DNA of 34,969 nucleotides from positions 2,405-37,373 of the forward strand of contig JAKJEF010000005.1 of assembly GCA_022705565.1 (NCBI GenBank), in the 5' to 3' direction. Below, piece by piece: positions 18,547 through 33,967 of the stretch. The notes below the pieces were generated by a model that was not told the DNA's origin, made no database searches, and saw only the letters and a list, made by a program, of their open reading frames with translations. Source of the stretch: Patescibacteria group bacterium (GTDB taxonomy: Bacteria > Patescibacteriota > Minisyncoccia > UBA6257 > Colwellbacteraceae). Numbering within the stretch: position 1 is the first letter of the stretch; each line of letters opens with the position of its first letter. A program made the translations under genes and the position numbers.

Positions 18547-19008
18547 TTATTCTCCGATTTTCGTCACCAGATAGGCGATTTCCTGTCCGGCCGGATTCTT
18601 GAACACGGCCTCATCCCCGACTTTCTTGCCGAGGAGCGCCCGGCCGAGCGGAGACTCGTTGGAAATCAATCCCTCTTCCGGCTTGGTTTCGTTGGAGCCG
18701 ACGATGACTATCTTTTTCTTTTCTCCGTTCCGCGCCACTTCGACGGTCGAACCGATGTCGACCACTTCCTGTTGGGTGGCTTTCTTGATGATGACGGCAC
18801 TTTTAATAATATCTTCGAGCTCTTCGATGCGGCTTTCTATCCGGTCTTGCTCCTCTCTCGCGTTCTCGTATTCGGCGTTTTCCGAAAGATCCCCGTATTC
18901 CTTGGCTTTCTTTATCCTGTCGGAAACTTCGATCCTGCTCACGGTTTTTAATTCGACCAACTCTTTCTTCAACTCCTCGAGCCTTTCGGCCGACAAATAA
19001 TAATTCAT
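18547..19008 (-). CDS. greA: Transcription elongation factor GreA
   Basis: 153 residues. The N-terminal coiled coil carries the tip motif EYGDLSENAEYENA with acidic Asp40 and Glu43, which reach the RNA polymerase active site and trigger cleavage of backtracked RNA. The C-terminal FKBP-like domain includes IVGSNETKPEEGLISNESPL and GRALLGKKVGDEA. Length is near the usual 158. The gene follows the glycosyltransferase by 6 nt. A divergent Gre paralogue is present at 33408-33905. Confidence 0.98.
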   Translation of the reverse strand: MNYYLSAERLEELKKELVELKTVSRIEVSDRIKKAKEYGDLSENAEYENAREEQDRIESRIEELEDIIKSAVIIKKATQQEVVDIGSTVEVARNGEKKKIVIVGSNETKPEEGLISNESPLGRALLGKKVGDEAVFKNPAGQEIAYLVTKIGE

Positions 19009-22194: not shown

Positions 22195-22632
22195 TTAGAC
22201 TCTTCTCGGTTTTTTCGGACGCGGACCGTTGTGCGGCACCGGTGTGACGTCTTTGATCGACATAATATTGAAACCATGATTCACGAGCGACCTGATGGCC
22301 GAATCCCGACCCACGGAAACGCCGGAAACGACGACGTCGACGTTGAAAGGCCCGGTCTTGGCGATCTTCTCGGCAATGGCGGCGATTATTTTCTGAGCGG
22401 CGAAAGGCGTCGCCTTCTTCGGACCGGCAAACCCCAAGGATCCGGCCGAAGCCCAGGTGACGACGTTGCCGTGGTTGTCCGTCACGGTAACGAGGGTGTT
22501 ATTGAAAGACACCTTGATGTAAATCTTGCCGGAGTCGACGCTTTTCGAAGATTTCTTCGAAGCCGCCTTGGCCTGCTTTTCTTCTCCTTCGGCGATATTC
22601 TCTTGTTTCGAAACTACTTTCTTTTTTCCCAT
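22195..22632 (-). CDS. rpsK: 30S ribosomal protein S11
   Basis: 145 residues with IYIKVSFNNTLVTVTDNHGN, WASAGSLGFAGPKKATPFAA and the C-terminal KDVTPVPHNGPRPKKPRRV of S11. The first 30 residues (lysine-rich, KKKVVSKQENIAEGEEKQAK) are an extension beyond the usual start and are probably disordered. It forms part of the mRNA exit platform. Confidence 0.97.
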   Translation of the reverse strand: MGKKKVVSKQENIAEGEEKQAKAASKKSSKSVDSGKIYIKVSFNNTLVTVTDNHGNVVTWASAGSLGFAGPKKATPFAAQKIIAAIAEKIAKTGPFNVDVVVSGVSVGRDSAIRSLVNHGFNIMSIKDVTPVPHNGPRPKKPRRV

Positions 22633-30848: not shown

Positions 30849-31791
30849 ATTTGCGGAAAGCCGCTTGGACGACGTGATCCAAGAACTCCGGAAAACTCAT
30901 TCCGCAAGCCAAAGCTTCTTGCGGCAAAAGGCTCGTCGGCGTCATTCCCGGGATGGTGTTTATCTCCAATATATACAATTTGCCGTAGGGGGACAAAATC
31001 ATGTCCGTCCTCGACAATCCCGAGGCTTTGATCGCCTGATGGGCGGCGAGAGCCGTTTTTTGGATAAGCTGGATAAAGTCTATCGGCAAATCCGGAGGCG
31101 TTATTTCTTCGGAAGCGCCGGGAATATATTTGGATTCGTAGTCGAAAAACCCGGCCGATTTCGGGACGATCTCCGTCGGGGGTAAAGCCCTCGCGTTTCC
31201 GAGTCCGTCGTCGATGACACCGCAGGTGAGTTCTCGGCCTTTGACGAATTCCTGGATCATCACGTTATGGGAAAAAGCGAAAGCCTGTTCCAGGGCCGGA
31301 TATAATTCTTCCGGAGACTGGACGATCGACACGCCGACGGACGAACCTTTATCTGCCGGTTTGACCACGAGCGGCCAGCCGAAATCTATGCGCAGATTTC
31401 CTAAATCTCCGAAATGCTGGAGTAAAAGCGATTCCGGGGGATTCAGTCCGGCGGTTCGGAAAACCCTTTCCGACATCACTTTGTTCATACCGAGGGCGCT
31501 CGAAGCCGGACCGCTTCCGGTATAAGGCAAGCCCGCTTCCTCGAGAACAGACTGGATCGCGCCGTCCTCGCCGTATTCGCCGTGCATGGCGATGAAAGCG
31601 AGATCGATCAGATCTTTCAGCTGGCGCGGATCCTCATCCCATTTTCCTTTTTTGTCGATCAAAACCGGAAAAACTTCGTATTTTTTCCTGTCCAAAAGTT
31701 TGGCCACGGTCTTGCCGCTCGACAAAGACACTTCGTGTTCGGACGAAGGTCCTCCCATCAAAACCGCGATTCGTTTTTTCGGAGACATCAC
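30832..31791 (-). CDS. ddl: D-alanine--D-alanine ligase
   Basis: 319 residues of the ATP-grasp superfamily. Motifs: IAVLMGGPSSEHEVSLSSG, MHGEYGEDGAIQSVLEEAGL, PYTGSGPASSALGMNK, VVKPADKGSSVGVS and EINTIPGMTPTSLLP. It joins two D-alanines for peptidoglycan precursors in the cytosol, which implies a conventional cell wall. It overlaps the gdhA stop by 4 nt (ATGA) and the dnaG start by 17 nt. A second ATG immediately after the first does not change the length meaningfully. Confidence 0.97.
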   Translation of the reverse strand: MMSPKKRIAVLMGGPSSEHEVSLSSGKTVAKLLDRKKYEVFPVLIDKKGKWDEDPRQLKDLIDLAFIAMHGEYGEDGAIQSVLEEAGLPYTGSGPASSALGMNKVMSERVFRTAGLNPPESLLLQHFGDLGNLRIDFGWPLVVKPADKGSSVGVSIVQSPEELYPALEQAFAFSHNVMIQEFVKGRELTCGVIDDGLGNARALPPTEIVPKSAGFFDYESKYIPGASEEITPPDLPIDFIQLIQKTALAAHQAIKASGLSRTDMILSPYGKLYILEINTIPGMTPTSLLPQEALACGMSFPEFLDHVVQAAFRKYGLSD

Positions 31792-33044
31792 AATTCTCCC
31801 CTGGCTTGCATGGCTTTGACGACCTTTTGAACGGCCAAAGAATAAGCCGCCTGCCTCAGAGTCGCCTTCTTCGTCGTTTTCGACATCCGTTCGTACTCGG
31901 CCCAGACCGAAGTAAAAGCGGAGTCCATCAGTTTTTTAAGCTTCGCGCAGATCTCTTCTTTTTCCCAATAATAATTTTGGAGATTCTGGACCCATTCGAA
32001 ATAAGAAACCGCCACGCCGCCGGCGTTCGCCAATACGTCGGGAACGATCAAGACCTTCTTGTTGGTCAGGATCTCTTCGGCTTTCGGAGTCACCGGGCCG
32101 TTGGCCATCTCGAGAATCTGCTTGGCGTTGATCTTGGAAACGTTTTCTTCGTTAATGGCGTTTTCCAAAGCGGCCGGCACGAGAATATCGACGTTCAAGC
32201 CCAAAACCGCCTCCGAAGGTAAAAGCTTTCCTCCGACAAATCCTTTAAAAGCGTCGTTTTTCGCTTTGTAATCGAAAGCTTTTCCGATATCCAATCCTTT
32301 TTCGTTGTAAAGGGTGTTTTTGCTGTCGGAGACCGCCACTACTTTGTATCCGCTCTCGTGGACGAACTTGGCGAAATACGATCCGACATTCCCGAATCCC
32401 TGGATGGCCACGGAAACGGCTTTTTTCTGTTTTTTTAGTTTTTTGACGAAAGAATCGAGAATATAAGAACCACCCAAACCCGTGGCTTCGGTGCGACCTT
32501 TGGAGCCGCCGAGCTCCAAAGGCTTGCCCGTGAGCGCTCCCGGATCTTTGTGGCCGATGATTTTTTCGTATTCGTCGAGCATCCAGCCCATGATTTCGGC
32601 GTTCGTGTTCACGTCCGGCGCCGGAATGTCTTTGTCGCTGCCGATCGATTTCGCGATCAACCGGATATATCCACGGCTCAATCTTTGAAGCTCGGATTTG
32701 GAAAGGGTTTTCGGATTCACCGCCACTCCGCCTTTGCCGCCGCCGTAGGGAATGCCGATAATGGCCGTTTTCCAGGTCATCCACATCGAAAGCGCCTTCA
32801 CTTCTTCTTCGGTCGTTTCCTCGTGGAATCTGATTCCGCCCTTATAGGGTCCGATGGCGTTGTTGTGCTGGCTCCTCCAAGCTTTGAATTTTTTGATTTT
32901 GCCGTTGTCGAGCTTTACCGGAATCTCTCCGGAAACCAAATTCTCTATTTTAAGCAACCGATCGATGGTTTTTTTATCGAGCTCAAGGATTTTGGCTATA
33001 TCAAAGAGCTGCTGCCTGGCGTTTTCGAGCGGATTATTTTTCAT
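31788..33044 (-). CDS. gdhA: Glu/Leu/Phe/Val dehydrogenase
   Basis: 418 residues from the ATG at 33044 (MKNNPLENARQQLFDIAKIL). Substrate region PYKGGIRFH, catalytic lysine motif PYGGGKGGVAVNP, DIPAPDVNT, a dinucleotide fold with GFGNVG and a C-terminal PDVLANAGGVAVSYFEW. These place it in the amino-acid dehydrogenase family, most like NAD(P)-dependent glutamate dehydrogenase; the exact substrate is not certain. The frame is open 19 codons further upstream, but that part covers the promoter, so the internal start is chosen. First gene of gdhA-ddl-dnaG-rpoD-alaS and others. Confidence 0.93.
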   Translation of the reverse strand: MKNNPLENARQQLFDIAKILELDKKTIDRLLKIENLVSGEIPVKLDNGKIKKFKAWRSQHNNAIGPYKGGIRFHEETTEEEVKALSMWMTWKTAIIGIPYGGGKGGVAVNPKTLSKSELQRLSRGYIRLIAKSIGSDKDIPAPDVNTNAEIMGWMLDEYEKIIGHKDPGALTGKPLELGGSKGRTEATGLGGSYILDSFVKKLKKQKKAVSVAIQGFGNVGSYFAKFVHESGYKVVAVSDSKNTLYNEKGLDIGKAFDYKAKNDAFKGFVGGKLLPSEAVLGLNVDILVPAALENAINEENVSKINAKQILEMANGPVTPKAEEILTNKKVLIVPDVLANAGGVAVSYFEWVQNLQNYYWEKEEICAKLKKLMDSAFTSVWAEYERMSKTTKKATLRQAAYSLAVQKVVKAMQARGEL

Positions 33045-33054
33045 AAGTGATTTA

Positions 33055-33083
33055 ATTCTAACCCCGATTCGGAAAAGCCCCAA
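33055..33083 (-). promoter_or_regulatory. Promoter of gdhA
   Basis: TAGAAT (33055-33060) with TTGGGG (33078-33083) at 17 nt on the minus strand. The -10 box is 10 nt from the ATG at 33044, again a very short leader. The -35 is weak. Confidence 0.5.
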
Positions 33084-33132
33084 ATAGAAATAAACTATCA
33101 AAAAAGCCTTTATTGGAGTTTATTTCTGCCTC

Positions 33133-33162
33133 TTGACAAAACAAACCAATATATGTTGTAAT
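33133..33162 (+). promoter_or_regulatory. Plus-strand promoter of the structured RNA region
   Basis: TTGACA (33133-33138), 18 nt, TGTAAT (33157-33162), with TG one base before the -10. It faces away from gdhA. Predicted start near 33170. Confidence 0.7.
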
Positions 33163-33169
33163 AAAATTA

Positions 33170-33330
33170 CAAAAATTGAGGAGCGACAAAAACGAACGCT
33201 CCAGGTCTTCAAAAGTAGCGAAGCGGAGTCTAAAAACCAGGCTCCAGCCAGACGGCGCGCAGGTTCTCATTCATACCAAGAGCGGAGAAAGAACCTGTCG
33301 CGCCGTTTCCATATCCGCACGGATATTTTA
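33170..33330 (+). ncRNA. Candidate structured RNA or long leader, unknown class
   Basis: About 160 nt without a convincing gene. Hairpin 1: GGAGCG/CGCTCC (33180-33202, A-rich loop). Hairpin 2: GGAGTCT/AGGCTCC (33225-33245) with loop AAAAACC and one G-U pair. Hairpin 3: ACGGCGCG-CAGGTTCT paired with AGAACCTG-T-CGCGCCGT, a 16-bp stem with one bulged T (33252-33306) and a 22-nt loop. Hairpin 4: ATATCC-GCAC-GGATAT then TTTT (33311-33329), terminator-like. I do not match it to tmRNA, RNase P, SRP RNA or a known riboswitch. It could be a free RNA or the leader of the Gre-like gene 78 nt further on. Confidence 0.55.
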
Positions 33331-33331
33331 C

Positions 33332-33360
33332 TTGCAATCTATTCCTTAAATTGCTATTTT
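33332..33360 (+). promoter_or_regulatory. Weak second promoter directly before the Gre-like gene
   Basis: TTGCAA, 17 nt, TATTTT. Both boxes are imperfect. If used, the Gre-like gene is transcribed separately from the structured RNA. The rest of 33361-33390 is AT-rich without other signals. Confidence 0.35.
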
Positions 33361-33392
33361 AAAAATCTGTTCTCAATATTTTCCAATATATA

Positions 33393-33398
33393 AGGAGG
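33393..33398 (+). promoter_or_regulatory. Strong Shine-Dalgarno site of the Gre-like gene
   Basis: AGGAGG lies 9 nt before ATG 33408 but only 3 nt before the in-frame TTG at 33402, so it selects the ATG. Such a complete site is unusual in this window. Confidence 0.8.
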
Positions 33399-33407
33399 GT
33401 CTTGTTG

Positions 33408-33905
33408 ATGGAGTCGTCGCCCCGAAGAACTTCGTCCAAAGCCTGTCTTTTTCCCAGACTGCTTCCCAAAGATCGGGAAGCCTTGCCGGCGGAAATCTCC
33501 AAGCTGGAAAAGGCCATCGCTAAACTTCAGGAGGATTTCGAGACCGCTAAGGAGGATGGCGAAGAGGCCTGTCGCATTCGCGATGAGATCACTAAGAAGA
33601 GAGAGGAGCTGAAATATCTCTTTGATCTTCAAAGATGCGCCGTTCTGGTCGAGAAACCCCAAAACGACGAGGTCGCGACGATAGGCCACAGAGTGACCTA
33701 TCATAATGCCCGTAACGGAGAATCTAGGACCATCGTCCTCTGCGGCGATTGGACTCCCGACGAGGAAAGATGCCGACGGACGAGAATCAAGACGCCTCTT
33801 TTCGCCGCGCTCGAAGGAGCCAAACGCGGCGAAGAAAGGAATCTCTTTACCAACGAATCCCAGAGAATCGTCATCGATCGCATCGAGGCCGCCGACGACG
33901 AATAA
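33408..33905 (+). CDS. GreA/GreB-family factor, divergent paralogue
   Basis: 165 residues. After a 20-residue basic/Ser-rich start, a helical hairpin (about 22-75, EISKLEKAIAKLQEDFETAK; then EELKYLFDLQRCAVL) has an acidic turn KEDGEEA near 48-54, the place of the catalytic tip in GreA. The C-terminal part (GHRVTYHNARNGESRTIVLC, IKTPLFAALEGAKRGEERNL) matches the FKBP-like Gre domain. Roles could be transcript cleavage, blocking of the RNAP secondary channel, or another use. It is plus strand, isolated, with a strong ribosome-binding site and its own terminator, unlike the housekeeping greA at 18547-19008. Confidence 0.72.
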   Translation: MESSPRRTSSKACLFPRLLPKDREALPAEISKLEKAIAKLQEDFETAKEDGEEACRIRDEITKKREELKYLFDLQRCAVLVEKPQNDEVATIGHRVTYHNARNGESRTIVLCGDWTPDEERCRRTRIKTPLFAALEGAKRGEERNLFTNESQRIVIDRIEAADDE

Positions 33906-33934: not shown

Positions 33935-33967
33935 ACGCTCCGGAAAATTCCGGAGCGTCTTTATTTT
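33935..33967 (+). terminator. Intrinsic terminator after the Gre-like gene
   Basis: ACGCTCCGGAA/TTCCGGAGCGT, a nearly perfect 10-11-bp stem, then CTTTATTTT. On the opposite strand it could also end pspC mRNA. Confidence 0.85.

Follow-up and report, generated by a model that had tools for sequence, protein, structure and literature searches.

A candidate small RNA gene with a conserved hairpin core between gdh and a gre-like gene in a Patescibacteria group bacterium

Does the strongly folding DNA between a glutamate dehydrogenase gene (gdh) and a gre-like gene belong to the gre-like mRNA as a leader, or does it constitute an RNA gene of its own? The question arises in a contig of a Patescibacteria group bacterium, of which a stretch of 34,969 nt, here called the window, was analysed. 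The source genome (G000) comprises 555,587 bases in 47 contigs with a completeness estimate of 98%; judged from its size, it looks like a reduced genome of the candidate-phylum type. The initial annotation had seen in a 274-nt gap a promoter-driven, structured RNA, either a new small RNA or a leader controlling the gene behind it. Measured from the gdh start (33044) to the ATG of the gre-like gene (33408), the gap actually spans 363 nt. The locus was compared with its counterparts in two congeners, the sister species G002 and a third member of the genus, G001 (Table 1).

Table 1. Features of the gdh-gre-like locus and of the canonical GreA gene; positions are those of the window.
Feature	Position	Strand	Description
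glutamate dehydrogenase (gdh) gene	31788-33044	-	divergent, left neighbour of the RNA
gdh-gre-like intergenic gap	33045-33407		363 nt
likely gdh promoter	33055-33083	-	TTGGGG-17-TAGAAT; marks the insert's left edge
promoter P1 of the RNA	33133-33162	+	TTGACA (33133-33138), 18-nt spacer, TGTAAT (33157-33162), extended -10 TGT
proposed small RNA	33169-33332	+	about 160 nt; z -5.9, tile rank, structure kept in G002; both ends predicted
hairpin H1	33180-33202	+	6 bp
hairpin H2	33223-33248	+	9 bp, one bulge
hairpin H3	33250-33308	+	18 bp with one bulge, plus inner part; long GC-rich stem
apical sequence of H3, TTCATACCAAnAGCGGAGAA	33270-33289	+	candidate functional site; 19 of 20 positions identical in G002
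hairpin H4	33311-33326, with tail to 33332	+	6 bp, then TTTTAC; weak terminator-like, -5.2 kcal/mol
promoter P2 of the gre-like gene	33332-33360	+	TTGCAA-17-TATTTT, extended -10 TGC
gre-like (Gfh1-like) gene	33408-33905	+	RBS AAGGAGG just 5'; outside the RNA gene
canonical GreA gene	18547-19008		tip GDLSENAEY with D..E cleavage motif

The proposed RNA folds with -59.3 kcal/mol, and none of 200 dinucleotide shuffles was as stable (z = -5.9). For the stretch named in the initial annotation z was -5.3. The tile holding the RNA was the strongest folding outlier of the window (z = -6.6, the lowest among the 427 tiles of the plus strand); its opposite strand folds less strongly (z = -4.7). All four stem-loops that had been announced for the locus, here H1 to H4, were recovered in the computed fold. 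As to the terminator-like character of the last one, H4 with its T-rich tail is present in the window, yet the hairpin is weak and does not form in G002, where no terminator is conserved. The second-strongest folding tile of the plus strand, 22387-22550, overlaps, in antisense, a minus-strand ribosomal-protein-like gene (22195-22632) and is probably a by-product of coding sequence.

The good promoter that the initial annotation had placed in front of the RNA stood up to inspection as P1, with a TTGACA box, an 18-nt spacer, TGTAAT and an extended -10. A simple promoter scanner, which requires an A at position 2 of the -10 box, missed it. The architecture is kept in G002 (TTGACA-18-TATTAT, with the same TGT 5' of the -10 box). 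A second putative promoter, P2, begins where the RNA ends in the window. The three congeners align at P2: G002 has the same boxes, and G001 has TTGCCA-17-TAATTT with TGC. The alignment of the P2 region between G000 and G001 scored 18, where shuffles averaged -19 (sd 4.4); RBS and start codon account for part of the score. Judged from these motifs, the gre-like gene appears to have a promoter of its own. At the other end of the gap, the -10 and -35 boxes of the likely gdh promoter were, by eye, the same in G001 and G002. Between this promoter and P1 lies a perfect 11-bp inverted repeat (AGAAATAAACT/AGTTTATTTCT, 20-nt spacer, 33086-33127), which is absent from G002. 3' of the gre-like gene, a strong hairpin of 10 bp, followed by a T-rich run (33935-33958), is a likely intrinsic terminator.

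Is the structure maintained in relatives? A DNA search of 100 relatives returned a homologue in G002 only, a member of the same genus (85% identity over query positions 109-275); in the search of 101 genomes, matches other than G002 were short A/T-rich or promoter pieces. G002 carries the RNA at the same place and in the same gene order, and its copy, though diverged, has a z of -4.6. The alignment of H2 and H3 between the two species has 123 columns, and each of the 28 pairs is a standard one in either sequence despite nine substitutions in paired columns. Three pairs changed on both sides and three on one side; one of each kind falls into H2 and two of each into H3, and no pair is broken in either hairpin. 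When the same substitutions were placed at random among the paired positions, every pair was kept in 264 of 200,000 trials. Sliding the 3' partners lowered pairing to 43-56%. Shuffling of the 3' letters reached the observed value in 59 of 500 shuffles, a weak control with two sequences only; likewise, the covariation test is thin because it has only these two sequences to compare. Three varying positions carry G-U pairs; read from the minus strand, these would turn into A-C mismatches, so that the RNA more likely corresponds to the plus strand. At the position of H1 the G002 copy also has a hairpin, but a longer one with a different sequence, and the A-rich linker diverges between the two species. 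A small protein was rejected as the product of the locus: its reading frames are not conserved against G002 and are interrupted by stops and by indels of 1 and 4 nt.

The main argument on the initial question came from G001. There, both flanking genes are kept, and the RNA cassette is missing together with P1. The intergenic space measures about 120 nt in all, and where the cassette would lie, the shared GCCCCAAAT is separated from ACTTGC/CTTGC by 10 nt only. G001 is thus without the insert and yet has P2; therefore, we consider the RNA to be a separate small RNA gene and not a Gre leader.

How far does the RNA extend beyond the genus? Run against 244 genomes of the order, a covariance model matched G000 and G002 and no others. 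With laxer filters it gave no significant match beyond these two in 39 near relatives, and no credible relative was found in 380 genomes of the phylum. A weak match in one further genome, G344 (20.2 bits), was put down to chance; it is located inside an open reading frame and has many broken pairs. An exact-motif scan of genome contigs yielded five matches, one of them G002; the other four consisted of the 20-nt tip alone, about the number expected by chance. Searches of viral, phage and plasmid collections yielded nothing; three initial matches failed the covariance model. The RNA is narrow in range: it was either gained before the split of G000 and G002 or lost in G001. The initial annotation had named conservation in relatives as the check on its proposal. 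Conservation was found in G002, but the RNA is present in only two of the three congeners and in none of the more distant genomes searched.

We conclude that the locus probably harbors a standalone non-coding small RNA gene which would act in trans via the tip of H3 or the A-rich linker. Of the two readings offered by the initial annotation, the new small RNA is the one supported, by the compensatory changes in G002, an own promoter, the lack of an Rfam match and the lack of a conserved frame. The gene would lie as an insert between the promoter of gdh and that of the gre-like gene, and transcription from P1 would start near 33169. At its 5' end the transcript would have H1, a hairpin that varies, and then an unpaired A-rich linker; the conserved core of H2 and H3 would come next, with H3 presenting the nearly invariant 20-nt tip. 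Tip or linker may then operate in trans, either by pairing with an mRNA or by binding a protein. Local target prediction over the start regions of nearby genes returned no convincing partner, and neither the gre-like nor the gdh mRNA next door was supported as a pairing partner. What is expected of a trans-acting small RNA, i.e. conserved structure, own promoter and no reading frame, was found here, in two species only. Intergenic trans-acting bacterial small RNAs are similar in further respects: they measure 50-500 nt, are transcribed from their own promoter, form several hairpins, leave A-rich stretches unpaired and have a narrow phylogenetic spread. The candidate differs in that it belongs to no known family and that its host has a reduced, 0.56-Mb genome.

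A leader or attenuator of the gre-like gene, as the initial annotation had also proposed, is unlikely. Transcripts from P1 would partly stop at H4 and partly continue as a long-leader mRNA. In fact, the RNA is on the same strand directly 5' of the gre-like gene, a weak terminator is available in the window with H4, and there is a precedent in GraL, a small RNA which originates by termination in the E. coli greA leader and acts in cis and in trans (PMC6829880). The GraL loop in E. coli requires catalytically active GreA (PMC6829880). The leader reading is disfavoured by P2, which is located between RNA and gene, is aligned in three congeners and is the sole visible promoter in G001, a species without the RNA. 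Further, H4 is not conserved in G002, and predicted pairing between the RNA and the start region of the gre-like gene did not exceed shuffles in the window (z = 0.33) and was weak in G002 (z = -2.3). With so weak an H4, transcripts may read through into the gre-like gene, which leaves the leader some probability.

The comparison with GraL was made by features, not by sequence. Common to both are the position of a small RNA directly 5' of a Gre-family gene and a terminator-like hairpin, although the latter is weak in the window and absent in G002. GraL, however, measures 37-59 nt within the greA leader, whereas the candidate has about 160 nt and P1 for itself, while the gene that follows is apparently served by P2, recognized by its sequence motifs only. 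In addition, the downstream protein lacks the GreA cleavage tip, and a canonical GreA is encoded elsewhere in the window. A GraL-like loop is not a good fit here, though the general idea has a precedent in GraL.

Which protein, then, is encoded next to the RNA? The gre-like protein is a weak match to the Gre family (Pfam E = 3.1e-4, below the cut-off). A structure model built from three orthologues (mean pLDDT 73.7) matched the folds of GreA, GreB and Gfh1 with a best E of 3e-7. The best sequence match among solved structures in the PDB was Gfh1 (E = 2.6e-4). Gfh1 is an anti-cleavage paralogue, i.e. an anti-GreA factor. The cleavage tip motif of GreA, on which GraL autoregulation depends, is absent from the gre-like protein in all three orthologues. 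The protein is fast-evolving, with 36% identity between the congeners G000 and G001, and clear orthologues occur only within its genus. The absent cleavage motif and Gfh1 as the best sequence match weaken the Gre feedback loop envisaged in the initial annotation.

Considerably less probable still is an RNA that works by protein binding and not by mRNA pairing, with RNA polymerase as the partner, as for 6S RNA, or a GGA-binding regulator. The very stable H3, with its nearly invariant tip containing GCGGAGAA, would be suitable for such a function, and Rfam detected no 6S RNA in the genome. 6S RNA (RF00013) has a similar length; in the candidate, however, the two ends do not pair to form a single long rod with a central bubble, and an Rfam match is lacking. 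Moreover, the GGAG repeats are mostly within stems, and presence in two species is ill suited to a housekeeping RNA. Searches with Rfam 15 at gathering and at relaxed thresholds gave chance-level matches only, for the window RNA as well as for the G002 copy, in agreement with the initial annotation, which had recognized no known RNA class. SRP RNA, tmRNA or RNase P RNA in disguise was also rejected, since G001 and other relatives lack the RNA; the genome's tmRNA and RNase P RNA sit elsewhere. As a side observation, the small SRP RNA (RF00169) was undetected in 39 genomes (G000 and 38 relatives) and the large SRP RNA (RF01854) in G000. In these genomes SRP RNA may be absent or out of reach of the Rfam models.

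A more far-reaching version of the small RNA gene would be a new RNA family of one ultra-small-genome genus, gained ready-made between two promoters, with an H3 tip whose binding partner is a protein of the transcriptional or translational apparatus, and in this way coupled to the neighbouring Gfh1-like factor. This we regard as a long shot. That the locus holds no functional RNA is hardly credible, whether the insert is taken as neutral or decaying, its strong hairpin then being an accident, or as a palindromic element at the DNA level: the RNA is absent in G001, is known in only two copies and diverges quickly in H1, linker and H4, but all pairs are kept under substitution, G-U pairs are biased to one strand, the promoter is kept, and the RNA is single-copy in its genome and therefore no dispersed repeat.

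A limited literature search found no small RNA described from such reduced genomes. The candidate RNA gene is new in sequence and familiar in kind, and it is lineage-restricted. The analysis corrects the tempting leader reading and draws attention to a Gfh1-like factor next door. With a promoter, a conserved core and presence or absence among sister species, the candidate can be checked directly in metatranscriptomes, and it could seed a family model.
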